A stretch of 46,877 nt of DNA from a virus: the IMG/VR virus record IMGVR_UViG_3300008050_000078, positions 1 to 46,877 of that record. The stretch is one strand, 5' to 3'. Both the position numbers and the translations under genes were made by a program. Under the pieces are notes generated by a model. The model saw nothing but the letters and a program-made list of their open reading frames with translations. It was not told the DNA's origin and ran no database searches. Shown here one piece after another: positions 15,801 through 45,525 of the stretch (the stretch's first letter is position 1; each line of letters starts with the position of its first letter).

Positions 15801-18800
15801 ATTACGTCCCTGATATGTTTCACCGTGAACTGACCGCCACCTACGTAGTAAGCCTCCGGATTCTTCTTAAAGAGTTTATCCTTAACACCGGGAACCCACT
15901 CACCATCCTCTCCTTCGTGCCCGTGAACTATCTCTCCGATTATCTTCTTAGCTTCTGGGTCGAAAAGTTTGCTTAGGTTATCGAACTCATTCATGATACT
16001 AACAGAGTTATCTGCTTCGTTTCTTGTACTGAATAGTTCTCTGCCTGCTACTTCTTCAGTCCAACTACCCTTACCGTGCTCCTTCTCGTATTCAATCTTT
16101 TGACGCATGTCTTCATCTACAGACCTAAGTATTGCTTTCTCTCCCAGACCTTTCCATAGAGGCGAAGATAATTCAAGAGCCATGGTCTGCAGCACGGCTG
16201 GATAAGGAACCATAATAGCTGTTCCTGTAGTAAGATAATCAAAGTGATCATCAATCATTTTACGGTATCTTAAGTGTGAACCATCTGCCACAATCTTTTG
16301 GTCCATGATTAGGGAGGTGGCGTGGTTGGGTGTGTCATACAAGAAGTCTGTAAGGAAGTCCTTTAAGTCCTGCTTCGTCAAGGGCTTCTCGTGCATGGAA
16401 CCATGTACAGGCATAGGTATTAACTGAGGTCTTCGATGTACGCCTAAGTTAATGCCTATATCTCCAGGACTCCATCCCTCGAAAGCGAATGCTTCTAGTT
16501 TTGCTCTTTCCTTAGCAGTTAATTTAGAGAGGTCTAATCGTACAATTTGCTCGACACGGGCTTCGCTAGTCCCCTCTAGTATAACTTTAGTAGCGTGTTT
16601 AGGTCCCTCAGGAGAAGCTCCGTGTGTGGTAGCTCTTCCGGGTCTAGATATACCTAAAGAGGGACCGCCCTTAACTTGTCCCATCTCTCCGATAGAACCA
16701 CTATTCTTTGTTGTGGCATGTCGAGCATCAGTACTTCTTAAATCCTTAAAGAGAACGAGGTCTACCATACCCTCAGCAGCTCTCTCAGGACTGTGCCATC
16801 CTTGCTTGCCATTGCCTAAGCTTTCTATAGTAACGCCCCTTATCAGACGATGGGGATTTAGTACTAAGTTTGTTAGAAATTCTATCTCGTAGGTTAAGAA
16901 GTCAGCATCCGTCCACGGGGCATCCGTAGTTCCTCCATAGTTTGGATCGAAGTTAGAGTGCATTTCAAAATCAAGTTGTCTCAATATAGCACTTCTGGTA
17001 ACTGGGTGCATACCCTTATATACTTCCGCGAGACGTTCGGTCGCGTGGCTTCGATATACCCCTCTGAATACAGCTGCGCTTTCTGGAGTATCCTTTAGGA
17101 ACTTTATAGGATGTCCTGTTTCAACATCATATTCTGCTATGTATCCGTGTTTACCAAACAGCTCAGCGCCTACTATCTTATCTGCGGCATCTATTTCTTC
17201 TAAGTGAGCTATAGTCTGGGCTAACTCTAGTGAATGATCTTCATGCTCCGCCATCTTTGTAAGATGTTCTACTAAACTTAGCTTCTGTTCTTTTACCTGA
17301 GTTAATCTACTCTGGGCTGCAGCAATCTCCTCATCTACTATACGTAAAACATCTTCTACCCTATACGTTAGGTAATGTCCCTTAGCCTCTAGTACCGCTT
17401 CTGACATATGTCCTTTGTGATTAGCAATAGCGTTGGCGAATACAACGTGCATTTTTAAACCTCTGCCGTGAGGTGTATCGTGTTTAAACCTATCAGGCAG
17501 AGCGGAGTACATTCGCATAGCTTCTATTGTTGTGTGTGATCCGGGACCGTCGGTCTGTACTTGAGTTGATCCTGCTATGACTTGTAAGTTGACTCCAAAT
17601 TCTACCCATGCCCTAGCTTCTAGTATGTCAGCCTGCTCTTGGGTAACCCCAGGAGCTTCCGAGGTTACGTATTTTTCTGTTGCTATTTCATCAGGAGAAT
17701 TATCCACCCTTATCACAGTCCCTACTGGAACATTGTGTAGGAAAGTTTCATTAGTATAAACAGCCCTCTCCCCATCTACCAGAAGCTGACCATCTATAGT
17801 TAAGTCACCTATCTCCTCAGTTCTCTGGGCATAAGCATTAGAATACATGGTCTCAGCTTCTTCTAAAGTATATGTCTTTCTATCAGCTGGCTTAAACATT
17901 TCTTCTTTTACCTGAGCTAGTATAACATCCTTTGATAATTTAGGATTATCCTTTTGTATTTCCCTAACTCTTTCTAATATCTTTTTCTTTGTATCAGCAT
18001 CAGAGTCTCTTACGAAACGTTCCCTGGACGTCGCTTCAAGAGCGTTATCAAGATCTTGTTGAATACTAACTACATTCTGATCCTTTGTTCCTGCGGGTAA
18101 CATGTATTCCAACTCTTTCTGTGTAAATACAATTCCGTTGAAAGCTCCCGTATAGTTGTTTAAGAACTGTGGATCTGCGATAGCTGTTTCAGCTTCCGCC
18201 CTAGTCATCCCCTCAGCCATCAAGGTCTGTACCCCCTGTTCCTTTCGCCTAGATACCTGCCCCTCCCAAGAAGTCTTGTTAGCGGTTAATTTAGCCGTAC
18301 GTCCCTTTTGAAACTCCATAACTGTTTGCCATGTCTTGGCTGTAAGGAACATGTATTCCCCACGTTTTCTTTTCGCCCTATTGATATTCATTATCTGGCT
18401 CAAACGCTCGGTCTTAAAAGCCCCCTCTGATTCATAAGCCTTATCCAGTGCTTCTTTAAGAGCCTTGTTTTCTGGGGAGTTGTCCAACTTAGTTTCCAGT
18501 TTTTCAGCGGCTCTATTAAGTTCGTGGATTAACTTCTCACCCTTAGCTCTACTAATACCGAGCACACCTTCTTTTTTATTTATAAGCTTGTCTAATAGTT
18601 TTAAATTACGTTTGCCTTTGATTAAACCCGAGTCTTTAAGCTTTTTAAGAAACTTAATATCTTCTGGGGATAGCCTAGAAAAATCTAATGAAGCATAAGT
18701 TCCGTCTGTTTTGATTGGAAAGAGGGAACCCACCAATGAGGTGAGTACCATTCTTATACTATCCTCGTTCTCAAGAGAGAAATTCTTATTATGAGCAGCC

Positions 18801-21511
18801 ATGTCTTCCTTATGTGCCGCCTCCTTTGCCTTCTGAAGTTCAATGACCCTATATATATCCTCTAAGGATGCATCCTTTAGATCCAAAGCCTTCCCATCTA
18901 AACCAGAAAGTTCTTCCATAGCTACTAATGTTTTTTTAAGCGCCGCAATCTCCATGTCGATTTTAGTGATAGTAGCTTCAGCTTTCGCCTTTTCCTCTGG
19001 GGTCATATCACCCTTGGCTATTTCATCTAGCTTCTCGTTTTTCATTTCTGTGGAGTCTACTATAACTTCTAGTATTGGGCGACTGGCGCCCTTAGTAGTG
19101 GTACCAAACAAAGCATCACTACCTTCTTTTGGTTCTGCATCTACCTCAGCAGGTTCTGCATCTACCTCAGCAGGTTTTGTATCTGGTTCCTCAAATTCCC
19201 TTAAACCCCTATCGTCTGTCTCAATGGGTTTTCCTTCTGCTTCAGCTGCTTTTTGTTCTAGCTCAAGTTTTTGGTTAAGCTCGCCATGCAGAATCTCAAG
19301 CCTAGCCATTATATCCATCTGCTCACCCATTGTCTTTTGCCCGAACTTGTGCCTATTCACATCTTGTTCGTTCTGTATTTGTACAGCTGTCTCTAATCGT
19401 TGTTGGGGAGTAGCCGAGTCGAATGATTCCCCCATACGATCTTTAGTAAGGGCTTTTGTAGGGTCGTCTAGCAAATCAAAGTAATTATTATCTGAGACCA
19501 CTGCATCTATATATTCGTTGTAAGTCATGTCCTTAACTGGTTTGTCCTTATAAGACTCACCACTCTTCTGTGCATTCTTATACTTATAGTAAAGCTGCTG
19601 CCGCATTTCTATTGTCTTACGTATACGGTTACCGATGATCTCGCCTTTTCTTCCGGCAAACATTTCACTGCTTTCTAAATCACTTAAGATTCTATCAGCC
19701 ACAAGTTGGGTTAGTTCATCAGTAGGCATGTTGTCAAGGCTTCCCTCACCATCCTTAGCCATTTGCTCTTCAACATCAGATACAATAGAATCTATATAGT
19801 CTACATGTTCGCTTGAAGACATACCTGATTCTTGGTAAATAGTTTCCATCATGACTACTAAGTCTGGGGTTGTTTCCCAGTTGATTTTATTTGGGTCGCC
19901 CATTCCTGTTACTCTGCCAGTTCTTTCTTCTAGACGTAATAACCCTTGTTGTAACAAAATGAAATCTCGTCCAGCATCAGGATTAAAGAAGCCAGCCGCT
20001 TTCTTAAAACCTTCGCCAAACTCTTTTGCTAACTGTTCGTTACCGCTTTTCGTAAAGCCCCAGTTCACTACAGCGGTGGGTGTATAAACAACCATCTTCA
20101 TAGCTCCGCCAATAATAGGATTAAGAACCCAGGATATCGCGCCTTCTACAAGAGCTTCTGTTCGTATGGCATGCCAATTAATCTCATCCTGAAGACCATA
20201 CCCTACCTTCCTGTTCTGGTTAAACCACTCAGCAATTCCTCCGGACACAGTACCTTCTACTACGTCAGAGGCTCGTCCTATTAGGAACCTATTCAGCCCG
20301 GTGGTCTTCCGCATCCAACCACCTATTCTGCCCGCTGAGAGTATACTTGAAGGAATATTCTCTGGTATAGCCCAGCGCCCTCCTCCTCTTACAAAGCGGC
20401 TTGCCTTATTTAAACCTCTGGCAGTTTTAAACGTACCGTATTTAACCCATCTAGACTTCTTCATGACCTTTCTAACCCAGTTAATCTTAGTTGTCATAGC
20501 CACCAAACCACCAGCACCAGCAAGACCTGCGGAGCCTACAGCCAGTACACCTGAGAATATTAACTCTGCTATCAGATCGGGATCATTTATTAAACCATTA
20601 TAAACAAAGTTTTTCGTATAGTGCCAGAACTTTCGCGTCGCCGGTGCATTCTTTTCAAAATGCTCAAGAGACCTCCCTATAGAAGTTAGTTGTATAACAG
20701 TGTTGATTTTCTGCATTACCTCGAGACCGTTCCTAGCACCCTCTGCTATTTGAGCCAGTAGCTCAACAGTAGGTACATGTGCCACAGTTCCGTCAGGTAG
20801 GGGTACCGCCTCTAAACTATTGGTAGCGGTCGCCATTATTTTAAAGAGCTCGGGATTAACCTCCGAGAGTTCTTGTAAAGCCGCCTCCACAGTAAACCCT
20901 TCAGGAGCTTCCGTGCCCAATAAGTCTGCAGGGTTCGAGTAGAAGAAGTTAGTAAACGGATTACTATATCCGCTACCACTGCCCAACTTTGTTATATTGT
21001 TTCCTCTAAATGTAGCAAAGTGTTCCAACATCTTTCTATTTTCATCACTGAGGCTAAAGAATTTCGTGTTCTTTCGCCACCCCTGTCTACTAGTACCTAA
21101 TATAGTATGCGCTATAAATTTATCAAACTCAATGTTTTCACCAAACGTCCCTCTTGAAAAATCCTGTGACATTACTTCGTAAGCAGCTACTTCAGGATCC
21201 ATCCAACCTATGCCATACTCTCGAGTAGCGGAATCAAAGAATACAGTATCTTCCCCTACCTTAGCTATTTCTTCTTGGGACATATTCGGCATGCCTTGGA
21301 TATAAGTTAATGTATCTAGACCATGTCTTGGTAATCCTAAGTCTAATACACCTTGTTGGCGTCTCTGCTGTATCTGTGCTATGTTTCCTATGCTTCTCGA
21401 TGCATCCCCGCCCTCGTCAATTAACCTTTCAAAGGTATCCTTACTCTGTTCTATAGCTTCGTCCCTAGCTTCCGGACGATTTGCTTCTCTTAAAAACGTA
21501 TCCTTTGGCAT
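6872..21511 (-). CDS. Giant internal/ejected virion protein with zincin motif (4879 aa)
   Basis: One unbroken 14.6-kb frame. It sits last in the internal-protein block, the place of T7 gp16 (about 1318 aa), so it is probably packed in the head and injected with the DNA; this is inferred from position. Visible features: hydrophobic segments near residues 311-345 and 452-483; a Pro/Ala/Glu linker with repeated PAEVDAE near 777-795; a Lys/Glu-rich helical region to about 1100; a zinc metallopeptidase signature HEMAH at 3344-3348, with a downstream Glu-rich helix (EEFIAG) that could give the third ligand; hydrophobic helices near 4543-4665; and an Ala/Pro-rich tail. HExxH domains inside very long phage proteins are known from the polyvalent proteins. 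I see no lytic transglycosylase motif. The ATG follows GGGAGG and overlaps the upstream stop as TAATG. Confidence 0.85.
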   Translation of the reverse strand: MPKDTFLREANRPEARDEAIEQSKDTFERLIDEGGDASRSIGNIAQIQQRRQQGVLDLGLPRHGLDTLTYIQGMPNMSQEEIAKVGEDTVFFDSATREYGIGWMDPEVAAYEVMSQDFSRGTFGENIEFDKFIAHTILGTSRQGWRKNTKFFSLSDENRKMLEHFATFRGNNITKLGSGSGYSNPFTNFFYSNPADLLGTEAPEGFTVEAALQELSEVNPELFKIMATATNSLEAVPLPDGTVAHVPTVELLAQIAEGARNGLEVMQKINTVIQLTSIGRSLEHFEKNAPATRKFWHYTKNFVYNGLINDPDLIAELIFSGVLAVGSAGLAGAGGLVAMTTKINWVRKVMKKSRWVKYGTFKTARGLNKASRFVRGGGRWAIPENIPSSILSAGRIGGWMRKTTGLNRFLIGRASDVVEGTVSGGIAEWFNQNRKVGYGLQDEINWHAIRTEALVEGAISWVLNPIIGGAMKMVVYTPTAVVNWGFTKSGNEQLAKEFGEGFKKAAGFFNPDAGRDFILLQQGLLRLEERTGRVTGMGDPNKINWETTPDLVVMMETIYQESGMSSSEHVDYIDSIVSDVEEQMAKDGEGSLDNMPTDELTQLVADRILSDLESSEMFAGRKGEIIGNRIRKTIEMRQQLYYKYKNAQKSGESYKDKPVKDMTYNEYIDAVVSDNNYFDLLDDPTKALTKDRMGESFDSATPQQRLETAVQIQNEQDVNRHKFGQKTMGEQMDIMARLEILHGELNQKLELEQKAAEAEGKPIETDDRGLREFEEPDTKPAEVDAEPAEVDAEPKEGSDALFGTTTKGASRPILEVIVDSTEMKNEKLDEIAKGDMTPEEKAKAEATITKIDMEIAALKKTLVAMEELSGLDGKALDLKDASLEDIYRVIELQKAKEAAHKEDMAAHNKNFSLENEDSIRMVLTSLVGSLFPIKTDGTYASLDFSRLSPEDIKFLKKLKDSGLIKGKRNLKLLDKLINKKEGVLGISRAKGEKLIHELNRAAEKLETKLDNSPENKALKEALDKAYESEGAFKTERLSQIMNINRAKRKRGEYMFLTAKTWQTVMEFQKGRTAKLTANKTSWEGQVSRRKEQGVQTLMAEGMTRAEAETAIADPQFLNNYTGAFNGIVFTQKELEYMLPAGTKDQNVVSIQQDLDNALEATSRERFVRDSDADTKKKILERVREIQKDNPKLSKDVILAQVKEEMFKPADRKTYTLEEAETMYSNAYAQRTEEIGDLTIDGQLLVDGERAVYTNETFLHNVPVGTVIRVDNSPDEIATEKYVTSEAPGVTQEQADILEARAWVEFGVNLQVIAGSTQVQTDGPGSHTTIEAMRMYSALPDRFKHDTPHGRGLKMHVVFANAIANHKGHMSEAVLEAKGHYLTYRVEDVLRIVDEEIAAAQSRLTQVKEQKLSLVEHLTKMAEHEDHSLELAQTIAHLEEIDAADKIVGAELFGKHGYIAEYDVETGHPIKFLKDTPESAAVFRGVYRSHATERLAEVYKGMHPVTRSAILRQLDFEMHSNFDPNYGGTTDAPWTDADFLTYEIEFLTNLVLNPHRLIRGVTIESLGNGKQGWHSPERAAEGMVDLVLFKDLRSTDARHATTKNSGSIGEMGQVKGGPSLGISRPGRATTHGASPEGPKHATKVILEGTSEARVEQIVRLDLSKLTAKERAKLEAFAFEGWSPGDIGINLGVHRRPQLIPMPVHGSMHEKPLTKQDLKDFLTDFLYDTPNHATSLIMDQKIVADGSHLRYRKMIDDHFDYLTTGTAIMVPYPAVLQTMALELSSPLWKGLGEKAILRSVDEDMRQKIEYEKEHGKGSWTEEVAGRELFSTRNEADNSVSIMNEFDNLSKLFDPEAKKIIGEIVHGHEGEDGEWVPGVKDKLFKKNPEAYYVGGGQFTVKHIRDVIKNTRDKGMREALEPIEKILSIFDEITDLYEADAITKNWGPDKMALFDSARNIMKTLLRNEHYTAGKNSFNQEFINEGEGFEAIEAANVAYSALHGVDSVIEVRGPDYKKHMEVLRGFLMNNDEIITGRIISAAAKLDNKKKQKVLSYLSIPSSKESTLAVWKDIIGTRAARQGMTEAEVNASIRGKLSQGKTLLNILDAIIEKKAVQKHGVLTTENLAEEVRLFRPRMDKARALIDGEPNGDFSPGTDLWKELQEILHGGKMSWDAVPVFSALNTLGASAHGFDMDHWKMVDEGEGVADHDPADLGGLEAEGVLQFMSTRLSEESDRGYVQYNTHLGTTTGAKKGRVGVGTPEYKAFIQGRREEVLRETGSLTAWNKVEIHGEWLMKFKDAHEATGVFTLENTPYFDMPRNREAAVAKAKKEGLKEVPLDFEQHIDNLILKQALIVLANQEAPPIPGQTEGVDRVVHYADQLRRWAKNDESRHPKLKEELALERRLVKTAGQEGGSWARRVLVERAKGGKLYSEQAGELLGKAIIKINPIEGKPKFHEKSGRVILETKQQFSPKPKSFLTPYHSRGISVIQLAHMRRQQQSQQSDIHKAAGFDEHVPPQDPTKFGGVGPWNNSSLPRPMPMLKEDLGGLELANPKAAIRAGQLYNEIRIYAAEAGYSLELDNNPELYPYFYVMMNQEKVRDKHLRRVNNKIKNGEDVNWDEEQNTLRFELDRVGWLSRDIREKKGPTTHFEDKEMPAMVLDPNIGLDEWRTIILKGLFDRNLLNQDAIKAGSFPAEGFMWDWKDSKGNSMLNPGEGLGDIKDLQLTITSKIAQSADFPKLLLDSHLARYRTKAVMELFKGDGRLARLIKEPNSMHFILNPQEKLDLYNKTMELQHEAQGDDLIFDLTLVEATHESPGKTVEALDNGMMDIQVSYDYEGKSHRFVLRSAVKSFATTLVGAPTKRHGANITLAISQESALKMFALNSNQRFVEAVDWTNITGKPMGGRKNEDTGDYEADNPMTQIIDNVTGFEQRKAHREAIVDSEALDLLSEGRVGDARKLNDRSRTQEGAVTRVIDLWGYQSNPPHSTLPFGSTFNEMHYRSLNKHLNLIESKGLVDGTSRVMISEIRNDMQYAREHMGQAHVKTVALAMTLELRNSKRQDISGSTTTYTKTLTAAELKTYINRTDKGLKDLTDAEFETVLTNALVYTNDILNVFSRNSDEKISITDFGTTNMVRSGTFWKAREYAAHSGQEHAPSFAEFLKWANVTERYAAMSDADKLSSQRQFNAAIGTEVDRMYDSSELTTNLLDVPDVKELAGHGLFRSSKNEGKFRDFIDTPGVHGIIKDDLININSDISRITEMTEVDANGNETTVGLLNESEAQMLRAMFLRLYTINPMLLKGVRLNLSASVTLGKASAIGGKYVVRLGKALKGEGEGLQFKDKVSLMEVVTHEMAHIARHKFIENNRGDWADWQQLKNTPDGEALIKKLVLAFHGGEMNPQAEAEILSYINSDEEFIAGMVSYYLMADQLPYIEGLNAKDYKIISSTLPIVDKIINWVRNILWDVRSVFTNFESDHPELSQTLDDLVMRTLGRDPESNAMMINEVGNPDAEYDKAVFPHNETPKHPSSVMEDGTTGPMNDVDYRAKVEQYHEMDKDMKEWAKEKRKETGDDTINVGHHPDYGTFQELESWFTSTNSDVIDGGDFGNKLNMAGLNRFEQVTGEIHLREAGAFDEESWENPATGETITRQVLLLDKVLEPPVLGKKSSLTPEDVRAGFHFILDQIHSEHGSPMSEGLGGLMLGLSKKWQRGGNDGPGWMRSFLLTFVVGNTGASFTYGSPLIIANLLSSLLDEQVITTLGHYTNLNGALGIRDAVERTKEFESEVMVDMEYLDTMLPPATMMRKKKRTEVKKQLAMEIWKKVDDPDYEIQIPDSYKENRLGFGGKTALSRSIVKPEDIRTAQDTVDNAALTVRRYVEWMESQAQESGFVSPMGFENKSPVKLKPMIAGDLNESFIPKIRETVVEEIEHQLGQENGYIDPATLSVARGYLPRITDSTEFVLDMGDMKPGFRKFFKDQIEGRTKKDLDDMIKTLGDPTAATEVKENLLAIIQSAQLGLMKGMLVRKIKWGDIRNHMGLESAQMKRDYLEAAKAEPSNESASRLKAWGLANQLLPSGMRSGELKFTSVSQLHAATFMHLAEQGVSMKKDSWVEPSLQRLADKGLDEHFITDPTAIMKELQKGLGSDISERALLSRLFNTKGTFDQILTLAERVAQSEKPFANLDGTEINLTTGKGAQFKKSLRILREKYEFTKGIHRQDSGIHPYVDEVVKVFPDIAKIAYGTNLTAATIIVEGGLNFADQVLRPANPASALRAAVAPLYAANPTARRQMGIDLKHVTEALTQSYAPDFEHLSDMLSTNSSLWEGTKKGLRAYGNLTVLGAHVALKGITYQRAGEMRRWVGREIHTNNMENFVNMLDAAKDENGRLPAEDSRMFKDIARKAGYGRGILGDSTVANVATLGAGGNMEIPIYLMRSGLLKKNRFLMLRAMLGGTVHAPEKGTAYSSLIKDKGEPYYNINQMRKELEIKLSREPGSDVESKVPAQQEGFREQMELLQGLRHLERLYIEDIILVPNAFDMYTKNSVLGKAWEVYMRYPTVFASNFLIRRSGRVSPGKYLQTIALASALDMLYMLTLTTAASATGYDRLQDKLASQRGWTVAEYGARLPVLGRYASMVAGLGLASLDADGRMVERAMTSVGVGAALNFIDGANEGIMYAAAGQWQEAMEHLLKFSPVLGDISIRLLWYNYLRWEWQTKEKTPDSTVDPHNTTPPQHFDLMNPATTNPYGKTMPEDFDFESVDWANIPLENLEAMMSSVAGDSEEVRKRCLELIFDAETFEPKDEIEDYVYLRHILNDLGVDVEGMIAQTFPEGPAANQRPWGSQIAQAPEEAAEATQEPAPVDIQGGVQGVTTPIDKMVASSKGPSNTSAGLADLLG

Positions 21512-33000: not shown

Positions 33001-33550
33001 TTCCGCCTTCATGAAGCCTCTTCTTTCCTATTACGCAAGCATACTGCCAATTATTACCTGAGAAGAACTGCTCTCGGTTACCTATGTATGCTCCGAAGTG
33101 CCCCACACAACAAGCGGTTACTTCAGTTATCGCGGTTATTCTGCTGCCGTTTGCAATTCCTGAATATATATATTGAGGGCTGTAACCTGGTGGTTCCATA
33201 CCCACAAAACCATTAGGTACCCACGATGTCTTCCTTACCGGAGCAGCGGCACAGTTAAAATAAACCTCTGGATATATAAAACCGTAGTTAGGATTGTTTT
33301 CTGATTCAGGAAAATAAGCTGCGGGTTTTGTAAAGAATTCTGGGTTTTCTCCAATTGGCTTTTGTCTATAATAGCCTATACCTTCATGCTCAAATACAAC
33401 ATCGCCATAGTTTTCATAGAGAAAATAGTCATGTCTACGTTTAAAATACCAATTATCCCACACAGGTACTATCTCCTGAGCGAATGGCCCGCCGACACCG
33501 TTCCCCCCAAGTTCGTTAGGATAATAGTTCGTATGATAATCGTACCACAT
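30095..33550 (-). CDS. Tail fibre/spike-like protein with trypsin-like protease domain (1151 aa)
   Basis: A large virion-type protein in the fibre block. Residues about 100-430 carry a probable chymotrypsin-fold serine protease: His 151 in a VTACCVGHF segment, Asp 186 in NDDTTILKI, and the nucleophile Ser 407 in GDSGSPVF, followed by ILVGLIGG. A Pro-rich linker (PDEPDEPD) and an acidic Trp-rich insert lie between Asp and Ser. The rest is Trp/Tyr/Asp-rich, as in receptor-binding fibres, with a GEILQW...RWG repeat near 495. There is no T7 anchor of its own. The ATG at 33550 (AGGAGG upstream) overlaps the previous stop as TAATG. An 8-base direct repeat at the junction suggests that this was once the distal part of the preceding fibre gene. 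It may cut a surface receptor or layer. Confidence 0.75.
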   Translation of the reverse strand: MWYDYHTNYYPNELGGNGVGGPFAQEIVPVWDNWYFKRRHDYFLYENYGDVVFEHEGIGYYRQKPIGENPEFFTKPAAYFPESENNPNYGFIYPEVYFNCAAAPVRKTSWVPNGFVGMEPPGYSPQYIYSGIANGSRITAITEVTACCVGHFGAYIGNREQFFSGNNWQYACVIGKKRLHEGGNDDTTILKIAATPQNASPPPIYPIKPDEPDEPDCTPAQCPAEWDDYYEAMEQWEIDIDAWIIECEEHIAEFYPAVLNDTILAPDMDIKFPWFMPEVEDDEYLDWTTRAEAEPDLPDLLETWIPPSDPTYYDWVRNNCILYTMQQDSCMGISGCKLMGRAASSDGSAKTIKMGTTPYLRNTNVFHKQKYFSQWCSTEKLIGTDSTKQLGILEDYINAMEPADGDSGSPVFTHIPEITGTSPILVGLIGGVGEYGEIGGNCGYMSSYYLPMWDEKIWEYHDDMIELGYNISILEWFTYRSRRITKDQLYAIPQFTDETPISYGGGGSISPFQGEILQWLPLPDARWGISGLDMTTNYDDEPHPDAAHAWHPVPIKPDYEGFHLQWRDEGIFHTISDMIDEVPVFEWEYWSGTDDAGGPYPKFFMGDMKDVSYLWKVGWPEGTTWKTRPKHWDTHNNAGDWLGKEDLVDGGHIPSFGKHKFMWTEDGWRGAQYYSWHFSHFWRGSEEITDPNDPGFSDGQVNHWVQDYWCDYKNRSGLVMTWDETLYGKRQNPDEEDPEGAFVLEPPLNREVDLNADKAELTKDPEEDEHDPMYYSPTHGRYIMPVLGWGEKADGTLGWRLLSPPLESIGVTKFEGKPRAGTVLRFEPNSVWDPNEDEGAWVPNRYNTGEQVWARDTYSVDMSYNKLYRRNFQDNVEPDGTFNLGDDMVREIYIPNDCTLAGYKIFDFSAAIYNRQSQNTYLEPKYNTAGHSEPHSDHDSFAHMPCSGLPPIGVESNACGNPTVYPQWYKMYFAEWMGDGDGGHFYCRPHDYDAFERVHTQLLYSMKLNIYRVRPNWEDMDTNPDSDTYGESSNSATITTIAEGVAYDDNPGQEWISTSRSLKKGDSIRIELDTSYQEDPSTGDGEYYNEYLVGREAVIMSHPAGLAYEHGNIGWQMPQHLWDVTTLATQTFAKTSFHIKLEDINQLQGVL

Positions 33551-35430
33551 TAGTACCACACCCTCCTTTTAGCAAAAACATTTTCCAAGTGATTTAATTT
33601 CATTCCCACGGTTTCCCAATGTGCTGGTGTGCCCATACCATCGTCTTGCCTCCACTTTACTAGTTCGCCTGCTTCTCTATCGGCAGCAGAATATCCAAAC
33701 GGCATGCTTGGTATCCACTTGTCAATAAACTTTCCTACATTATTACGGTACTCGAATTGATACGTAGGAATTCTTGGAATGATATCTATAATACCACCAA
33801 ATTCCTCGAGTCTTTCGCCTGTAATTTGTCCCATCCATGTAACGGGCAGAGACACGTCAACGCCAGTGCTACATATGATTTCAGCCTCTATTACAGTACC
33901 CTTAACCCACTCCGCATCGACCGGGTTTTTAATCTCTAGCCATAGAGGACCAGGCAACAACTTATCCTCAGGATGCGAAGGGGAGTTACTAAGGTCGGTA
34001 AACCAAGTATTACTAAGTTCATAGGTAGCTTCTAAGTTAACAAAACCCCCATCCTCATTTAGTTCTCCAAAGTTCCTTAGCACCTCATAATCATAGTCAT
34101 AGTTGCCAAATACTGTTAACTGTATATCCCTTACATCAGGATGCTCAATTATTACCCTTAATTCTAATTTTTGCCCGGCTTCTTCGATAGCACCCGCCGT
34201 GATGTTAAAGCGCCTTCTTGCGATATCCAGATAATGCCACTCGCCGCCCACTTTGAATCGTCCATTAGTACTACACGGCATATGACAGCAGTCGACGTGG
34301 TAATGCATATCCCATTCTGCCGGGACGTCGTACATATCACATACCTGAGTATCGGTATGTAATTGCGCGTTTCCTGGGATACCAGAAGCAGGAAAAAAGT
34401 GTACAGTTTGTTCTATTCCTATAGAATCGCTAAAGAATTTTCTAGGAACCGTAGTATCACCATCTAGAGGAGCATAGCCGTTTCTGCTTCCTGTAATAAA
34501 AGGGTTTAAAGAACTATGCTGAACTCTTTCCAGATATTCTTGATTTAAAAATAAAATCTGAGAGATGCTTGGATTCATTAAGCTAGATCTAAGAGCCTCA
34601 TCCTTTTCCCATATTTGTATCCTATTCATTGCAGGAGTTTTTCTTACTAAAACCAAATCATCATCGCTACTTATAATAGGTAATTGTATATCATACCCAC
34701 GAGAATGATGTATACCATCTTGCCATATATAATCACCAGCATTATCTGAGAAGTGTATTTTTTTGTTAGCAGGGTCGATTGTATACATTGAACTTCCAGA
34801 AGAATCTGCATTAGGTAGGGTGTATATAGTTCTTGCTTCTTCTGTGGTAAGTCCTAATACCTTAGATTCTATAACAAAACTGGCTGTAGATATATGAACA
34901 TTATCAAAGAAATCCCCCATACCTAAATCACTTGGATCGAATGGCAATTCATTTTCTATAATAATTGTCCACTCTCCCGCCCAGTCTTCTTCGTAGGGGA
35001 AAGTGGCATTAACAGAATAAGAGTTATTTACCCTGAATCCTTCCCAATCTACTATATCGCCTCCACCCGGGTGTACCTCAACAACAGTTCCGGAAGGTGA
35101 TTCTATTGACCATTTAAGGGCGTTGGTCCAAAACCCATACTGTAAGTCTAAATTTATAAACATATCAGTTGCATGTGTAGGTATATCTACAATGGTTTTT
35201 GAAAGGGCTAAAGGAGTTGAAAGAGGAAGAGGAGTCCATACGTCATGATCAATAAAGCTAAGATCAACAAGATCAATTGTCTCAAAGTCTTCAGAAGGCA
35301 GATCGAATGTTCGTATTAATTCTATCTGATCTTGGTCTGTGTAGATGTCTAATAGACCCAACGACTGATAAGAAGCAGAGGTATCTCCTGAATCTATTTC
35401 TATATAATGTTTATTAATAGGAGACGTCAT
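33550..35430 (-). CDS. Tail fibre protein, second paralogue (626 aa)
   Basis: Residues about 245-300 carry the T7-type fibre anchor pattern (a run of beta strands, then LMNPSISQILFLNQEYLERVQ), preceded by a segment with SGSSMYTI...FSDNAGDYIWQDGIHHSRGYDIQLP that closely parallels the upstream fibre gene. The protein stops at ...LNHLENVFAKRRVWY, exactly where the first fibre continues past LNHLGDVYARKYDF, so it appears cut short. Residues 50-200 are beta-rich and unlike the first fibre. It overlaps the previous gene as ATGA and the next as TAATG. Role: attachment to the tail and binding of the host surface, probably with the downstream protease protein. Confidence 0.8.
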   Translation of the reverse strand: MTSPINKHYIEIDSGDTSASYQSLGLLDIYTDQDQIELIRTFDLPSEDFETIDLVDLSFIDHDVWTPLPLSTPLALSKTIVDIPTHATDMFINLDLQYGFWTNALKWSIESPSGTVVEVHPGGGDIVDWEGFRVNNSYSVNATFPYEEDWAGEWTIIIENELPFDPSDLGMGDFFDNVHISTASFVIESKVLGLTTEEARTIYTLPNADSSGSSMYTIDPANKKIHFSDNAGDYIWQDGIHHSRGYDIQLPIISSDDDLVLVRKTPAMNRIQIWEKDEALRSSLMNPSISQILFLNQEYLERVQHSSLNPFITGSRNGYAPLDGDTTVPRKFFSDSIGIEQTVHFFPASGIPGNAQLHTDTQVCDMYDVPAEWDMHYHVDCCHMPCSTNGRFKVGGEWHYLDIARRRFNITAGAIEEAGQKLELRVIIEHPDVRDIQLTVFGNYDYDYEVLRNFGELNEDGGFVNLEATYELSNTWFTDLSNSPSHPEDKLLPGPLWLEIKNPVDAEWVKGTVIEAEIICSTGVDVSLPVTWMGQITGERLEEFGGIIDIIPRIPTYQFEYRNNVGKFIDKWIPSMPFGYSAADREAGELVKWRQDDGMGTPAHWETVGMKLNHLENVFAKRRVWY

Positions 35431-38307: not shown

Positions 38308-41300
38308 CTATTGAGCTCCTAACGAATTAAGTTTATATTTAAATTTTCCTGTAAACTCCACATCAGATAATGTAATAGGGTGTACAGACGTCGATGTTAT
38401 ATTCATTTTAAGATCATGTGAAAAACCTAATACAGGTACTTTGAATATACCATAGTCAGTAAAGGGTTTGTAGTCTAGAAGATTTCCTGAATCGTCTACG
38501 GTATCAATAGTATAAGGTAAGGTAACAGCATCTCTAGATTTTCTTTGGATGCTTACTGAAAAGTCTCCAGAATTTCTATACCTAAACATACCCAATCTTA
38601 AGTTAAGAGCTCCGTTTTGAGCATCGAGGTTCTCGTCCCTAAGAAATACAGGAGATAGTTCTATATTAGCTGTATATGATTTACCCATATAAAAACCGCC
38701 CGACGCTGACAAGTTACTTCTATGATCAGAGCCTACTGTTACTATGACACCTCCTGGGTAATCGTCTGGATCTGCTGGTACACAAGTTTTAATATCAAGT
38801 TTTATACCTCTAACGTTAGGGTCTTCATCGTTCCATAATATAATTGTATCTAAATCAGTAGTAGGACTTTGAATAGTAAAATATGTTTCCATATCATCAC
38901 CGGAACCTTGTGTTTGGGGTGCTACATCCATATCACTTAAGTCCCTGTGCATAAGAGAATCCAGCCTTGGTAAATATAGATCTTGATTTCTTAAGTATAT
39001 TCTTCCTGCGTTAATACTAGTCCATGTGTCATCCTCATTATCTGAGTTAACTATTTCCTCTTCCCAAACAAGATAAAGATATTCTTCAACGCCAACTATA
39101 GATCTTATTGTCCATCCCTCGGGGAATATGAACCTAAAGAAAGAGTTTTGTGCTATTTGATCTCCGCTAATTCTATTAGTATAACAATAGACATGATTCT
39201 TAGTATCTTTGTCAACCAGGAAAATGCTGTTTGTAGCTGCTGATGTAGTAATATCCTCAAAAGACTCTGGTAAATATCCTTGAGCATTGATAGAAATATC
39301 TATTGCATTTTGGGCTGCTTCTGTCTGTTCTCCAAAATAAATATATAACCGTCTAGCATCAAGAAAGAACAAACTGTTGTTCAAAAGAACAGGATTAACA
39401 TCTAAAGTCATATTATAAAAAGAAGTGGGTGCTATCTCGGCTGTTAATGGAGAGATTTGGTTCTCAGAACCTAGTAATTCGTATTGTATACCGCCATCCG
39501 TAGCCAAGAATAGGAAGTTTCGGTAAGGCTGGAGATAAGTAATAGGTGTATAGGCGTTAGATGACACCCTTAAGTCAATAGGATCAGCTACACTGAGGGT
39601 ATCTGGATCGTTTATCCAAAAATTATCAAAGTCATTGATTCTAGAGGAGACCAAGATATCTTCTGAGGCTAAGAATAGTCTGCCTCTGTAATAGGACATA
39701 GCTGATAAAGATCTTTGTATTGCCTTACCGTCCCCATCATGAAATATACTGGGTCCAGGGTTTGAAATGACGCCACCAGAATCTCTTGGATCCCAGTCAA
39801 CCTGTTTGAATCGCCATGTAGGGTCATCACCATCTCTTAATAAAGATGTTTCCTCAAATCGTTTTCCTATCTCAGAAGAAATAAGGTTGGCGGCACTAAC
39901 ATCTTTTGTTTTAGCTAAGTCTAACACTGATTTCCAAGACGCATAATCCATAGTGGCATTATTTCTAAATGAATTAGTATTTTTTTGAAAGACAAATGCA
40001 GCGCCACAGCGGTCACAACTGTCGCCGTCTAGATGATTGTTCCATTCCGACCCTGCAGCAAACCGATTACCACTCAGAGATATATGGTAGCCGAAGAGGT
40101 CATTCGGTTGAGGCTCGAAGTGAGAAGGTACCGTATAATGCGTTGACACAAAGCGATAACCGTCTGGTTCATCCGTGTCAACCAATCTCTGAATTATATG
40201 CGCCCGTCCGCGTAAACCATGATACGCTGAACCACTAACTGCCACTTCACCTTTATGCCATTCTGCGTCTTGCTGTTGCACAGAAATGGAAGTTCCAAAC
40301 GCATTCCCATCCTCGTCCGTGGTTTCTATCACACCACCAGCTGTCCATAGTTTGGTTGCAGAATCATAATCATAAAAAGTAACCGTAGCGCCGTTTGGCA
40401 AGTCATGGCCCCCTTTTCCTGAAATAACCGCAATGTCGCCGTCGATGTCAATAGCCTTCCCGAAGTTATCACCCTCTAAGCCAGTCCCTCCAGTAATCTT
40501 CTGGTTCTCTTCTCTACATATATCGCAGACATCACTAGCTACACCCCAAGATTGGTCTATATGGTCATAAACAAATGAGAATGCAGCACCGATTTCATCG
40601 TTAGGAATATCCTGCCCGTACAGATCGAATCCCCTTGCTCCAACAAGAATCTTGTCACCATCTATTTTAACCACATTTCCGAAGCCATCCCATGGTACTT
40701 CTACACTAGCTTTAAGCTCAGCTTCTAGAGTCCATTCACTCTCAGAATAACGATAGACATAAGCTCTTCCAACTCTAAGGTCATCACCGTTTATTCTGTG
40801 ACTTGCCCCAATGACTGCTACATCTCCATCAATAGCAATAGAGCACCCAAAGAGATCTCCAGAATCATACGGTGCCGGGCTTATGAATGTGTGTCCTTGT
40901 TCCCAAGGCTTTGCTCCCGGTGACGCTGCGTCGTAATGGAAGCAAGTTACTTCACCTGTACCTGTATTCGTTATATTAAACTGATTTGATCCCAAGAATT
41001 TGTCTCCAGATAAAGCTACACCTGTTCCAAACTGTATAAGGGTTTCTGGCCATTCGTGTGTTATTTCTTGTAGTTCAACCCACTCAACACCATCAAATTC
41101 ATAGTAATATATTGCACCTTCCCATGGATGAGAGCCACTATCAGGAACATGATCATGGTTATGTCTACTTGCGCCGATCAGTAACCGATCTCCATCTAGT
41201 ACTAGATTCGTACCGAAATCTTCAGGATTAACACCAAACCCACCAATATCCGCAGCCTTAAGCTTGTAAGGAAAATGAGCTGCTGGGCAGGGTCCCAGAC

Positions 41301-43572
41301 TTTGGATAACTTTAAGTAAATCTTGCAAATTAACAACGCCGTCATTGTTAATATCTGCTGGTATATTTTCCCCTCGTTCACCCCAATGAACAATAACTTC
41401 TATGATATCAAGAACATCAACATTCCCGTCGCCGTTCACGTCTGCGTCACAGGTCCCATATCTTGGTGTATTCAGGTCACTTTCTCTGTACTCCCGAAAA
41501 GTATAGTTTTCATCTAAGACCAACTGCATAGGCATTCGTCGCTTGTCTATGATAGACATCGCTTCGGGAGTACGTATCTTATGTAAGTAGGGTTGCTCGT
41601 CTACATCCTTAACTCTGAAGTGTCCTTCCGATAGCCCTGAATAATTCTGGCTAAGGTAGTACAGTTTTCCTGCGCCAGCACTATCACCTTCGTCGGGATA
41701 TAGATCAACTAGCATGTCTGTGACATCGCTGGACCCATTAAATGCCGTTAAGTCCGAGAAGTGAGGAGGGAACTTTAAGTCCGACAGTGCTGATACAGCC
41801 TGTCCGAGATACTTGTGTTCTGGGTTAGGGTAGTAATAGTCAGATGCCTTCATAAAGTCTGTGTATTCTGCCCAGCCCTCTCCTGTATCAGCATCTTCTC
41901 CGCCTTCATAGGCAGCATCTATTTCGTCTAGAATATCTAGGTCTTCAAAGGCGGGTGGTAACGGATCCTTTGGTACTCTCTCCCACTGTTGGGTATGATA
42001 AACACATTCCCATTCCCAACCATTAAGACCAGCGTTAGGTGTTGTTGTTACACTTATAAGTCCCTGGTCTCGATACCAATTTAAAGCTGACGATACGTGT
42101 TCCACTAAATCTTGAACACTATCAAGCCGTTCTGTATAAATTCTGCAATATATAGCACCCTGATTAGCCGCCCCAACTTGTAAAGGGTCGGGTTGATAAG
42201 TGCTTGTGTTAGAAGGGTCTGGATCCCATAGTACTGTAGACATATCTCCGCCATCATACTTGTATCCTTTTTGATCCCACCCTGTGCCATATTGATTTCC
42301 AAAGGAACTCGAGTCTAGCCAGAACCTAATTTTCTCATAAGAGTCAGAGTCAGAGGGAGAGGGATCATAGTCCCCTTGATGGTTATCGTCGTATCTCCTG
42401 TTGGGTACCCAATACGGTAAAGCAAAATGATTGCCATATCCTGTAGTCCCGCTACCGTCAAGATGTACTAACCACTCAATTTCAGAAAGAATGTCTGCCT
42501 TACTAAGAGGCTCTCCTACCTTAGTGCCTGAAGGATATTTCATTAGAGCAGGACACACAGCCTTGCTGGTGGGTGATCCTCCTGAAAATGATCCTATATA
42601 TATATAAGGCTTTGCAATGTTTCCTTGCAGGCTCCCGTAGTTCATGTGTCCTTTATCTATACCTGCAAAAGGTTCCCTTGGTGGTAAGCCAGAATCGTCT
42701 GGTCCCACGATATCTGCAGCCTTATCACTAACTTGCCATAGTCCACTCCTAAGATGATCGTAAGATGTCATCCACTCTGCAGGATCGGTCGCATTGTAAT
42801 TGACCATATTCACATCAGTATTCATGAAGTCGTCAGTACAGTAGACCTGATCTCCTGCTATATAGTGTGAGAACTTATTCCATATCTCTGCATTAGTTTT
42901 TACATCTACAGTAGATGAGGTAAGGTACTCTAGTATTTTTCCTTGTTTGTCGTCATCACCAGCACTTGCACTTTCTCCGTCCATACCCCTCAATAAACCT
43001 TCGTCGATGCTACCTTTTTCAGAACTAGTATACCCTGCTTTGACTTGGGTATTAAGTATTAGTAGAGACGAGCCCACAGCTACAGCTCTAAGCGTATCCT
43101 TAGCAGTATTTGTTTCATGTCCGTATGTTATATATTCTCTTGTTGCCTCTGATACAGGTTCCCTTATTTCTTCTGAAAGTTCTCCGCTTTCATTAACCTT
43201 GTACACCCATAGTAGTTGTCGGTCGAGATCAGTAGCGTCTGCCTTATAATCTATGACGATAAGATACTTTGTAGTGGAAGATACAAGGAACCAGTGGTAC
43301 CAAAAATCCTTGGCAATGTGAACTGTAGTATCAGGAAGTTCTGAAATACCAGCTAGTCTGCCTATTAAAGCAGCGTCTACCTGCTTAAGAAGTTCTACCC
43401 CTCTACGTTTTTCTGCTGAATGTTCTAGAGATACGATAAAATTATCTACGTTTTCTGATTCCATAGGAATTCTTTTCGTAGGAGAAGATCTTCCTACTCC
43501 TCCTGAAAAAGAAGGTATATCTATCTTTACAGGAAAGTATGATCTAGACGAAGGTAATCTTTTCTTAGCCAT
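38308..43572 (-). CDS. Tail tubular protein B (nozzle) with dockerin and FG-GAP propeller insert (1754 aa)
   Basis: The counterpart of T7 gp12, the tail nozzle, but more than twice its 794 residues. The N-terminus (FSGGVGRSSPTKRIP, then NVDNFIVSLEHSAEKRRGVE) and a block near residue 1290 (YYRGRLFLAS...SSRINDFDNFW) are typical of the family. Residues about 704-763 form a dockerin-like pair of calcium loops (DVNGDGNVDVLDI and DINNDGVVNLQDL, bracketed by Cys). Residues about 784-1198 hold seven FG-GAP motifs, including FGTNLVLDGDRLLIGA and FGCSIAIDGDVAVIGA, the hallmark of a seven-bladed integrin-type propeller. The start at 43572 overlaps the previous gene by 8 bases and has GGAG about 11 bases upstream; an earlier ATG at 43611 has no ribosome site. 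Confidence 0.88.
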   Translation of the reverse strand: MAKKRLPSSRSYFPVKIDIPSFSGGVGRSSPTKRIPMESENVDNFIVSLEHSAEKRRGVELLKQVDAALIGRLAGISELPDTTVHIAKDFWYHWFLVSSTTKYLIVIDYKADATDLDRQLLWVYKVNESGELSEEIREPVSEATREYITYGHETNTAKDTLRAVAVGSSLLILNTQVKAGYTSSEKGSIDEGLLRGMDGESASAGDDDKQGKILEYLTSSTVDVKTNAEIWNKFSHYIAGDQVYCTDDFMNTDVNMVNYNATDPAEWMTSYDHLRSGLWQVSDKAADIVGPDDSGLPPREPFAGIDKGHMNYGSLQGNIAKPYIYIGSFSGGSPTSKAVCPALMKYPSGTKVGEPLSKADILSEIEWLVHLDGSGTTGYGNHFALPYWVPNRRYDDNHQGDYDPSPSDSDSYEKIRFWLDSSSFGNQYGTGWDQKGYKYDGGDMSTVLWDPDPSNTSTYQPDPLQVGAANQGAIYCRIYTERLDSVQDLVEHVSSALNWYRDQGLISVTTTPNAGLNGWEWECVYHTQQWERVPKDPLPPAFEDLDILDEIDAAYEGGEDADTGEGWAEYTDFMKASDYYYPNPEHKYLGQAVSALSDLKFPPHFSDLTAFNGSSDVTDMLVDLYPDEGDSAGAGKLYYLSQNYSGLSEGHFRVKDVDEQPYLHKIRTPEAMSIIDKRRMPMQLVLDENYTFREYRESDLNTPRYGTCDADVNGDGNVDVLDIIEVIVHWGERGENIPADINNDGVVNLQDLLKVIQSLGPCPAAHFPYKLKAADIGGFGVNPEDFGTNLVLDGDRLLIGASRHNHDHVPDSGSHPWEGAIYYYEFDGVEWVELQEITHEWPETLIQFGTGVALSGDKFLGSNQFNITNTGTGEVTCFHYDAASPGAKPWEQGHTFISPAPYDSGDLFGCSIAIDGDVAVIGASHRINGDDLRVGRAYVYRYSESEWTLEAELKASVEVPWDGFGNVVKIDGDKILVGARGFDLYGQDIPNDEIGAAFSFVYDHIDQSWGVASDVCDICREENQKITGGTGLEGDNFGKAIDIDGDIAVISGKGGHDLPNGATVTFYDYDSATKLWTAGGVIETTDEDGNAFGTSISVQQQDAEWHKGEVAVSGSAYHGLRGRAHIIQRLVDTDEPDGYRFVSTHYTVPSHFEPQPNDLFGYHISLSGNRFAAGSEWNNHLDGDSCDRCGAAFVFQKNTNSFRNNATMDYASWKSVLDLAKTKDVSAANLISSEIGKRFEETSLLRDGDDPTWRFKQVDWDPRDSGGVISNPGPSIFHDGDGKAIQRSLSAMSYYRGRLFLASEDILVSSRINDFDNFWINDPDTLSVADPIDLRVSSNAYTPITYLQPYRNFLFLATDGGIQYELLGSENQISPLTAEIAPTSFYNMTLDVNPVLLNNSLFFLDARRLYIYFGEQTEAAQNAIDISINAQGYLPESFEDITTSAATNSIFLVDKDTKNHVYCYTNRISGDQIAQNSFFRFIFPEGWTIRSIVGVEEYLYLVWEEEIVNSDNEDDTWTSINAGRIYLRNQDLYLPRLDSLMHRDLSDMDVAPQTQGSGDDMETYFTIQSPTTDLDTIILWNDEDPNVRGIKLDIKTCVPADPDDYPGGVIVTVGSDHRSNLSASGGFYMGKSYTANIELSPVFLRDENLDAQNGALNLRLGMFRYRNSGDFSVSIQRKSRDAVTLPYTIDTVDDSGNLLDYKPFTDYGIFKVPVLGFSHDLKMNITSTSVHPITLSDVEFTGKFKYKLNSLGAQ

Positions 43573-44230
43573 TATTATTAGTTCTCCAAAATCTGAATCT
43601 ATTTGGGTCATTAGATATAGAATAGCGGTCTACATTTTTTCTAGCCTTGCGAGAAACTTGTGAAAAGACGTGTCTCCGTCTGTCATCTGTATTTGCTCCC
43701 TTTGCTTGGGCCTTATAGTACGCCTCCACTTGTCCTAAGTATGCGTCAGCATCTGCATCGCCTTGCATTACTAGTTGATATTGCCGTGCCGCCGCTGCCA
43801 TTACAGCTCTTTGATACGTCGTATCTAAATCTAGCCAATCCAAATCAGTAATTGTTTCTATAAGATATTCCTTATTAGCCTCCCAAATATCTGTACTGTC
43901 TGTTATGTTATATAGATAAGGGCTCTCTGCATCATCATACCCCCTGATATTAGCTTGAATCATATACCCGTCTGAGTTAGTGTGGTATGATACTAATTCT
44001 GCGGCTAATACATTGGTTGTTAAATTAAGTCTGCCATCTTCATCTAAGGTAGTCTTTGTAAGAGTTCTGTTTCCCACCGTACCTCTCATTAAACAATCAG
44101 TACGAAACTGGTGTAGAAGAAGTAAAGCTACTTCGGTATCTATATCACTTTCCACTAAAGTGGAAACTGTAGATTCTCCCGCCATCAACAGTATATGATT
44201 AACTGCCTTTAGTTCTGTAATATATCCCAT
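43565..44230 (-). CDS. Tail tubular protein A (221 aa)
   Basis: The counterpart of T7 gp11 (196 aa), the ring that joins portal and nozzle. It has the usual plan: an N-terminal helix beginning ELKAVNHILLMAGE, the ALLLLHQFRTDCLMRG helix near 35-50, and a C-terminal helical part with QRAVMAAAARQYQLVMQGD near 140-158. It follows the capsid gene and terminator and precedes the nozzle gene, the same order as T7. AAGGAG lies upstream of the ATG, close to the terminator hairpin. Confidence 0.9.
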   Translation of the reverse strand: MGYITELKAVNHILLMAGESTVSTLVESDIDTEVALLLLHQFRTDCLMRGTVGNRTLTKTTLDEDGRLNLTTNVLAAELVSYHTNSDGYMIQANIRGYDDAESPYLYNITDSTDIWEANKEYLIETITDLDWLDLDTTYQRAVMAAAARQYQLVMQGDADADAYLGQVEAYYKAQAKGANTDDRRRHVFSQVSRKARKNVDRYSISNDPNRFRFWRTNNNG

Positions 44231-44301: not shown

Positions 44302-45525
44302 TTACGAAGCTACGTATTCACCACTCATACCCCAAGCTGTTTTAAGCTCGGCTCGTGTTGACGACGTAGAGTTATCGCCTGAAGTAGCTGTTGTGTTAGT
44401 CGTGTCAATCACGGACACAGCCAACTCAGGACGAAGTACACCAGTACCGCTCATTACGGACGCTACTGTAAATACTGTGTTCCGACGGATGTCATCAACA
44501 GTATCTACTTTAAGACCTTGTAGTTTCAAGGAAGCAATACAGCCTCGTTGCCACATAAGAGCCTTGCAGTGTCTCGCAGTAGCTGCTGCTGCTGGAGTAC
44601 CTATGAAGTTTAGGTTGTACCTATCTTCACCAATATCTGCATCGGTTGCAGAATAATCTACATTAGGCAAGTGGTTACTCTTACAGATGGTACAGCCCAT
44701 GTACATTAGAGTTTCCTCTAGTTGTGGGCGCCCAGCTAAAGAGCTGCCTAAGCCACCTTGCTCAGCAATACCAGCAAACATCTGTGCTGATGCACCAGTA
44801 GCTGAACCGTAACCAAGATCTAAGTTATCACGAGCTACGCCGAGGGCGCGGATACTAGCGAAAGCCTTAGGATCTACAGCACAGAATACACCTTCAGTGG
44901 TGATGTCTGTTTCTTGTAGATAAACCATCCAGTCCTCAATGTTCTTGAGAAGAAGTAATGCTGCATCAGTTTCAGCAGTACTTCCAGTACCATCTCCTAG
45001 CGCTGCATAGTCTTCAGACGCAAAAGGCGCATGGAAAGAAAGACTACGAGGATCACCCGCAATTGGTTCTTCAGCAGAAGCACGAGCAATGTAAGCAGCG
45101 ATCTGCTTATCCCGTGCATTAGCCAAAGTCAATCCTGCTTGACGTGCCAACTCTGAACGATACTCCCATTGAGTAATCATCAAGTCGATGTTATCCAATT
45201 CAAAGTGAGAGGCCATTGGACGCTTGTCCAAGTTAACAGTAAAGGTTTTAGCCAAACTGTCATCCCCGCCTACTAGTTCAACGCCTGCACCCCATGCGGG
45301 TTGTAAGCTTACAGTACCGGTGATGGGAAATTCCATCGTAGTACCGCTTGCGATTGTTCGAGAGTCTACCATACCCTCAAATTTATTATATTGATCGTAC
45401 GCATGAATAACTTCGCCCGACCAAATAGGTAGCCAAAGCTTACCCGCATCAGAGTTAGACCCTGAGGTCATTTCTGTTGCTGTTAAGCCATTACGATAAG
45501 AAAGATTTGTTATATTATCTGGCAT
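44302..45525 (-). CDS. Major capsid protein, T7 gp10-like (407 aa)
   Basis: Forms the head shell. The size (T7 gp10A has 345 aa), its position between scaffold and tail genes, and the pattern of strands plus a long alpha helix (WEYRSELARQAGLTLANARDKQIAAYIARA, about residues 118-148) fit the HK97-fold capsid proteins of T7-like phages. A FPITGTVS block near 66-73 and a LDKRPMASHFELDNIDLM segment near 97-114 are typical of this group. The ATG at 45525 has AGGAG about nine bases upstream. A terminator follows directly. Confidence 0.92.
   Translation of the reverse strand: MPDNITNLSYRNGLTATEMTSGSNSDAGKLWLPIWSGEVIHAYDQYNKFEGMVDSRTIASGTTMEFPITGTVSLQPAWGAGVELVGGDDSLAKTFTVNLDKRPMASHFELDNIDLMITQWEYRSELARQAGLTLANARDKQIAAYIARASAEEPIAGDPRSLSFHAPFASEDYAALGDGTGSTAETDAALLLLKNIEDWMVYLQETDITTEGVFCAVDPKAFASIRALGVARDNLDLGYGSATGASAQMFAGIAEQGGLGSSLAGRPQLEETLMYMGCTICKSNHLPNVDYSATDADIGEDRYNLNFIGTPAAAATARHCKALMWQRGCIASLKLQGLKVDTVDDIRRNTVFTVASVMSGTGVLRPELAVSVIDTTNTTATSGDNSTSSTRAELKTAWGMSGEYVAS

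Follow-up and report, generated by a model that had tools for sequence, protein, structure and literature searches.

A dockerin and FG-GAP propeller module inserted in the T7 gp12-type tail nozzle protein of a metagenomic virus

The window, a stretch of 46,877 nucleotides, is a metagenomic virus record that harbored a T7 gp12-type nozzle gene together with a gp11-type adaptor gene and a major capsid gene (Table 1). These three genes were adjacent and on one strand in the order capsid-adaptor-nozzle. The nozzle protein matched Pfam Phage_nozzle (aa 1257-1760, E 5e-53) and PHROG 457 (E 1e-68), and homology and gene order both place it among the gp12-type nozzles. The nozzle reading frame was open upstream to 43611 (38308-43611, minus strand), giving 1767 aa when counted from the first ATG; M14 of this frame corresponded to the MAK start of the relatives, which gives 1754 aa. 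The numbering of the nozzle protein throughout refers to the 1767-aa version. Elsewhere in the window, a 626-aa tail-region protein (33550-35430, minus strand) showed a weak match to the proprotein-convertase P-domain (aa 105-163, E 0.008) that was below the cut-off. An ORF of 4879 aa (6872-21511, minus strand), which occupied nearly one third of the window, matched no PHROG and, above cut-off, no Pfam family, and its product is possibly a giant internal virion protein.

Table 1. Coordinates of the nozzle gene, its insert and the neighboring genes in the window.
Feature	Position	Strand	Residues (aa)	Basis and remarks
Nozzle gene, T7 gp12-type	38308..43572	minus	1754 aa from M14	Pfam Phage_nozzle, PHROG 457; start as in relatives
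Downstream nozzle flank, second strand of the receiving hairpin	39787..39825	minus	1263-1275	Aligned to L006 PSWDLRQVDWDPR
Whole insert, ~559 aa	39826..41502	minus	704-1262	Alignment to L006 nozzle; profile alignment of 52 site-spanning nozzles
Helical linker back to nozzle	39826..39966	minus	1216-1262	Model helices 534-547 and 549-567, moderate confidence
Seven-bladed FG-GAP propeller	39952..41244	minus	790-1220	Pfam FG-GAP_2, AlphaFold, Foldseek
Dockerin, with C721 and C775	41284..41451	minus	721-776	Pfam PF00404, PDB 2y3n, NCBIfam GC-type
Calcium loop 2, DINNDGVVNLQD	41320..41355	minus	753-764	Canonical ligands at 1, 3, 5, 12; kept in L067
Calcium loop 1, DVNGDGNVDVLD	41407..41442	minus	724-735	Canonical ligands at 1, 3, 5, 9, 12; kept in L067
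Upstream nozzle flank, first strand of the receiving hairpin	41503..41535	minus	693-703	MPMQLVLDENY, aligned to L006 MPRQLVFDDSY
Adaptor gene (gp11-type), neighbor	43565..44230	minus		Pfam Tube E 1.9e-7, PHROG 446
Major capsid gene, neighbor	44302..45525	minus		PHROG 267 E 1.3e-27; probe for relatives

The nozzle of a relative, L006 (1157 aa), contained no insert and aligned cleanly with the window nozzle on either side of the insert (MPRQLVFDDSYSTPSWDLRQVDWDPRDSG), with 61% identity downstream, and ordinary nozzles without the module were also found in the alignment of 52 nozzles. A preliminary description of this DNA had placed the module inside the nozzle gene at 39970-41470, with the nozzle sequence resuming after it. 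Both the arrangement and the coordinates proved essentially right, the insert running from about 39826 to 41502 when compared with empty-site relatives. Its alternative, that this region is a normal nozzle domain in all gp12 relatives, was not borne out, as relatives are empty at this hairpin turn. In the L006 model, the receiving hairpin consisted of strands E638-643 and E650-655, and the insertion fell in their turn, at about residue 315 of gp12 by aligned positions. The module occupies the turn of a single beta-hairpin and so leaves the nozzle fold intact. The whole L006 model matched T7 gp12 (Foldseek E 5.5e-45), and this empty-site relative therefore has the gp12 fold. A seven-bladed propeller is present in T7 gp12 itself, and its loops close the DNA channel (PMC6702177). 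That the insert is simply this ordinary gp12 propeller was considered and ruled out, because the empty L006 nozzle folds like gp12 and the flanks align on both sides. Because T7 gp12 has a seven-bladed propeller of its own, the FG-GAP propeller is a second, extra propeller in the nozzle. The reading frame was open across both insert junctions, and the GC content of the insert was 0.44 vs. 0.43 for the whole nozzle gene. The linker YTFREYRESDLNTPRYG that precedes the dockerin (aa 703-720, 41452-41505) resembles the nozzle strand that follows, PTWRFKQVDWDPRDSGG, and may be what is left of a duplicated hairpin strand at the receiving site.

The two dockerin-type calcium loops with flanking cysteines, the exactly seven FG-GAP motifs and the closed integrin-like propeller of the preliminary description were all recovered. 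Dockerin_1 (PF00404) matched aa 724-772 above the Pfam cut-off (E 2.2e-7), and the dockerin of PDB 2y3n also matched (E 8e-5). The module contained two 12-residue calcium loops with a helix after each, as in type I dockerins; position 9 of loop 2 read N/D in the window/L067 comparison. A conserved strand, FPYKL (aa 780-784), precedes the propeller, which matched Pfam FG-GAP_2 above cut-off (E 3.6e-26), in four stretches. Seven FG motifs of the FG-GAP type were located at aa 799, 861, 921, 977, 1050, 1105, and 1173, and an extra FG at aa 792, just ahead of blade 1, is not a repeat motif. All seven were in blade register with 31 planctomycete FG-GAP proteins, and the Gly was common to 27-31 of the 31 rows. 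A single-blade HMM built here detected six of the seven blades, blade 6 being divergent. Within the window, FG-GAP matches were confined to the nozzle gene.

The whole window protein was too long to fold, and AlphaFold was run on aa 690-1290 with 34 sequences (pTM 0.75). The propeller was modeled with confidence (10-residue blocks mostly at pLDDT 70-96), and the dockerin, at pLDDT ~75-88 over most of its length, formed two loop-helix units with helices at model residues 44-52 and 73-81; the nozzle flanks of the insert had low pLDDT. The strand list of the model fitted seven four-strand blades, with a further strand immediately ahead of blade 1 (YKL, aa 782-784), which, as read from this list and not from coordinates, may close the propeller ring. 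Integrin alpha headpieces ranked first for the insert model among solved structures (Foldseek PDB, E 8.6e-16). Viral matches in Foldseek BFVD included FG-GAP proteins, among them giant-virus proteins and a virion protein of cyanophage S-TIM5. Pfam matches, motifs, alignment, AlphaFold, and Foldseek thus all identify seven FG-GAP repeats in a closed integrin-like propeller.

Relatives of the window virus were identified by a capsid-alignment scan, from which 80 viral contigs were kept. When the full nozzle, the nozzle C-terminus, or the insert was used as a single viral-scan query, at most one relative was retrieved by each; the 3' end of the insert, used in another scan, detected no additional insert. 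Among 52 site-spanning relatives (46 distinct), a long insert at this site was found in the window only. L067, an incomplete contig from a different sample with 67% capsid identity, contained a dockerin and the start of blade 1 at the same place, and ended inside blade 1. Another incomplete contig, L142, harbored an FG-GAP propeller at the site and no dockerin, which suggests that the dockerin is an optional part. The site was empty in L148, from a 65-kb relative. The window, L067, L142, and the empty relatives therefore define a cassette site with three states, namely empty, propeller-only, and dockerin plus propeller. The L067 nozzle gene itself was interrupted ahead of the insert by a frameshift, either genuine or a sequencing error (L067:10838-11902 and L067:11829-13244). 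Other large size differences among the nozzles of relatives were located elsewhere, in the tip region; the nozzles of L123, L118, L115, L133, L087, L101, and L114 reached 1400-1750 aa through large near-tip insertions. Among those checked, the nozzles with such large insertions matched only the nozzle model in Pfam, and the tip of the nozzle seems to be a place where domains are commonly added. One relative's nozzle, in an alignment of relatives, matched the carbohydrate-binding module CBM_5_12 (E 8e-4).

Comparison of the window with L067 revealed a sharp change at the upstream edge of the insert. Identical codons at identical residues numbered 72 of 133 before aa 690 vs. 75 of 93 from aa 690 on (Fisher 3.7e-5), and the best single break in codon identity, at aa 684-686, was reached by none of 2000 permutations. 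Upstream dS was 2.5, near saturation, vs. 0.33 in the insert, whereas dN was 0.20 upstream vs. 0.26 in the insert. The dN/dS ratio of the insert was ~0.8, and the part shared with L067 was 62% identical at the amino-acid level. Over the dockerin, 66% of residues were identical and 8 of 8 core calcium ligands were kept (chance 0.027). Loop positions 10/11, which carry partner specificity in type I dockerin loops, differed between the two dockerins. Since synonymous divergence drops sharply at the upstream edge, which is the only edge of the exchange visible here, the simplest reading of these sequences is that recombination at the conserved upstream flank moved the cassette between phages and that its protein sequence then changed quickly; the dN/dS of ~0.8 could alternatively reflect relaxed constraint. 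Taken together, the three site states and the synonymous break at the upstream edge point to related phages exchanging this part as a module. Receptor-binding parts typically show such exchange, with rapid change of the protein after it.

The domains of the insert resemble those of planctomycete surface proteins. One genome-wide scan with few patterns, which was not a census, gave a single confirmed match, in a planctomycete MAG. The in-depth search covered planctomycete genomes only, which limits any claim of phylum specificity, and 48 of 294 of these genomes contained a match at E 1e-10 or better. Nearly all well-resolved planctomycete FG-GAP proteins had seven blades. Compact dockerin-rich genomes, which are inferred to be Phycisphaerae-like from this architecture, encoded proteins of ~470-560 aa in which seven FG-GAP blades were combined with a two-loop dockerin at the C-terminus; most of these proteins ended in Gly-Cys. 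Among the secreted proteins of dockerin-rich planctomycetes, a propeller with a C-terminal GC-type dockerin is an established combination. The best planctomycete dockerin match was 49-50% identical to the phage dockerin over 55 residues, including GENIPADIN vs. GANIPADLN. NCBIfam calls the planctomycete dockerins GC-type, and the same model (NF041540) was the best NCBIfam match of the phage dockerin (E 6e-4), although the scores of the window (20.2 bits) and L067 (21.2 bits) did not reach its cut-off of 29 bits. GC-type dockerins serve as surface anchors at the C-terminus, whereas the dockerin is internal in the phage protein, and the domain order is reversed, the dockerin being first in the phage and last in the planctomycete proteins seen. 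The planctomycete loci had a GC content of 0.58-0.73, unlike the 0.44 of the insert. Because the GC content of the insert is that of the phage gene and not that of the planctomycete loci, its capture was old or indirect, or it came from elsewhere.

The host of the virus is putatively a planctomycete. The only link is a T7-like phage contig of 9.5 kb (G354:C116, L152), placed in the bin of one planctomycete MAG, which encoded a portal, scaffold, capsid, adaptor, and nozzle; its capsid was 57% identical to that of the window, and its nozzle lacked the insert. This contig is binned and not integrated, and as binning can err, it is only weakly supportive of a planctomycete host. Spacer-like DNA matches in 392 planctomycete genomes were limited to the binned phage contig and weak matches of 30-43 bases, two of which fell over the dockerin-coding stretch. 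The nearest sequenced isolates showed only ~28% capsid identity.

The insert is probably an exchangeable host-adhesion module, built of planctomycete-type surface domains and putatively displayed from the tail nozzle. The module would emerge from the hairpin turn and leave the channel-forming fold intact, and by analogy with the hexamer symmetry of the T7 nozzle, six copies would stand around the tail. Binding to a ligand at the surface would take place during ejection or ahead of it; the likely partner is a glycan or a surface protein of a planctomycete host, and the binding face is most likely the propeller. The dockerin, held folded by calcium, may bind the component that keeps such dockerins at the host surface, or may act as a calcium-stiffened spacer. 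A propeller is reportedly part of the host-recognition device of phage phi11, although the phi11 receptor-binding protein is said to be a separate baseplate protein with another type of propeller, and not a nozzle insert. A further, tentative possibility is that the phage mimics the surface-retention signal of its host, so that six copies of dockerin and propeller around the nozzle would engage the receptor by which dozens of secreted proteins of the host are retained on its cell surface. The preliminary description had proposed a docking device on the tail tip that holds the host surface or mimics a host secreted complex. A surface-binding role is a reasonable hypothesis, whereas the cellulosome-style docking to cohesins that it had implied was not supported, given the GC-type resemblance and the lack of a cohesin above cut-off in the six dockerin-rich planctomycete genomes examined.

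Classical cohesin docking, in which the dockerin would bind a host cohesin on a cellulosome- or "planctosome"-like complex as the main attachment, appears unlikely. Cohesin/dockerin and P-domain proteins have been proposed to form a surface complex in freshwater planctomycetes (PMC6461901), the neighboring tail protein has its weak, sub-threshold P-domain match, and the retention of the core calcium ligands between the window and L067 also fits such docking. On the other hand, the phage dockerin is nearer to the GC-type family than to cellulosomal dockerins, loop positions 10/11 differ between the window and L067, and L142 carries the propeller without a dockerin. Cohesins had also been suggested as something to look for in host candidates. 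In six dockerin-rich planctomycete genomes with 20-66 dockerin matches each, none had PF00963 over the cut-off; five had no match and the sixth had a single one below it, whereas cohesins were present in other planctomycetes in the same search. No cohesin was detected by Pfam in the phage proteins tested either, and a cellulosomal partner was found neither there nor, above cut-off, in these six candidate host-type genomes. Adhesion to particles or matrix, with the module binding polysaccharide or particles such as marine snow or algal mucus and concentrating the phage near hosts, is similarly improbable. Proteins of aquatic viruses widely contain FG-GAP propellers, as do the giant-virus and cyanophage virion proteins in BFVD, and close relatives dispense with the module, as this explanation would allow; a location on the nozzle and not the capsid, in six copies only, favors a role at cell contact, and the apparent exchange between phages and the fast change are a better fit to host recognition.

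A purely structural accessory is also unlikely, with the insert stabilizing the nozzle or holding tail fibers without ligand binding, or being merely tolerated as a weakly constrained decoration. Such a role could account for the dN/dS of ~0.8, for the lack of a known ligand, and for relatives without the module, but the seven intact blades and the kept calcium ligands argue against decay, and gain and loss at a fixed site with an apparent recombination edge are unexpected for a structural part. An assembly artefact or chimera that joined a bacterial gene to a phage gene is a concern for a record of metagenomic origin. It is nevertheless very unlikely, since the site is found in its different states in the window, L067, L142, and the empty relatives; L067, which comes independently from a different sample, shares the junction and the dockerin, with 62% of amino acids identical in the shared insert part, the frame is open through both junctions, and the GC content of the insert is like that of the phage gene.

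The host-adhesion reading can be compared with several known systems. T7 gp12 (6r21, 9jyz) and other podovirus nozzles share the core of the window nozzle, as the Phage_nozzle match indicates, but neither a dockerin nor an FG-GAP insert is present in T7 gp12 (794 aa), whereas the window nozzle has both, in the hairpin. A precedent for domains inserted in a nozzle propeller is the crassvirus muzzle gp44, where blade 3, and the stretch between blades 2 and 3, accommodate Ig-like domains (PMC10172136); its inserts are, however, Ig-like and "crass" domains, and not an FG-GAP propeller or dockerin (PMC10172136). The secreted FG-GAP proteins of planctomycetes (L030, L038, L040-L045) have, like the insert, seven blades and a two-loop, Cys-flanked dockerin, but they are free-standing and secreted, their dockerin is C-terminal, and their propellers are ~20-29% identical to that of the phage. 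The integrin alpha headpiece has the closed seven-bladed FG-GAP fold in common with the insert at ~13% identity, and the insert lacks an integrin partner subunit; this is a resemblance of fold only. The cellulosomal type I dockerin (2y3n) contains two calcium loop-helix repeats as in the phage dockerin, which differs in having no cellulosome context, a weak GC-type match, and no cohesin partner found. A literature search for a dockerin with FG-GAP in phages found nothing, and where dockerin-like phage genes had been mentioned earlier, in two instances, the proteins were unrelated ones. Nozzles that carry an inserted domain are already known, and an insert of the dockerin/FG-GAP type was not found described in the literature searched.

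Host recognition in T7-like phages is normally assigned to the fibers. The locus described here would place a swappable adhesion cassette on the nozzle itself, with three states at one site. To our knowledge, no phage receptor has been characterized in planctomycetes, and if the tentative mimicry is true, the module would be an attachment device for such a phylum. The insert also provides a handle on dockerin function in bacteria that have dozens of dockerins and few or no recognizable cohesins. Furthermore, it connects an unisolated virus group with planctomycete-type surface proteins in a way that can be tested, and is a possible clue to the bacteria that the virus infects.
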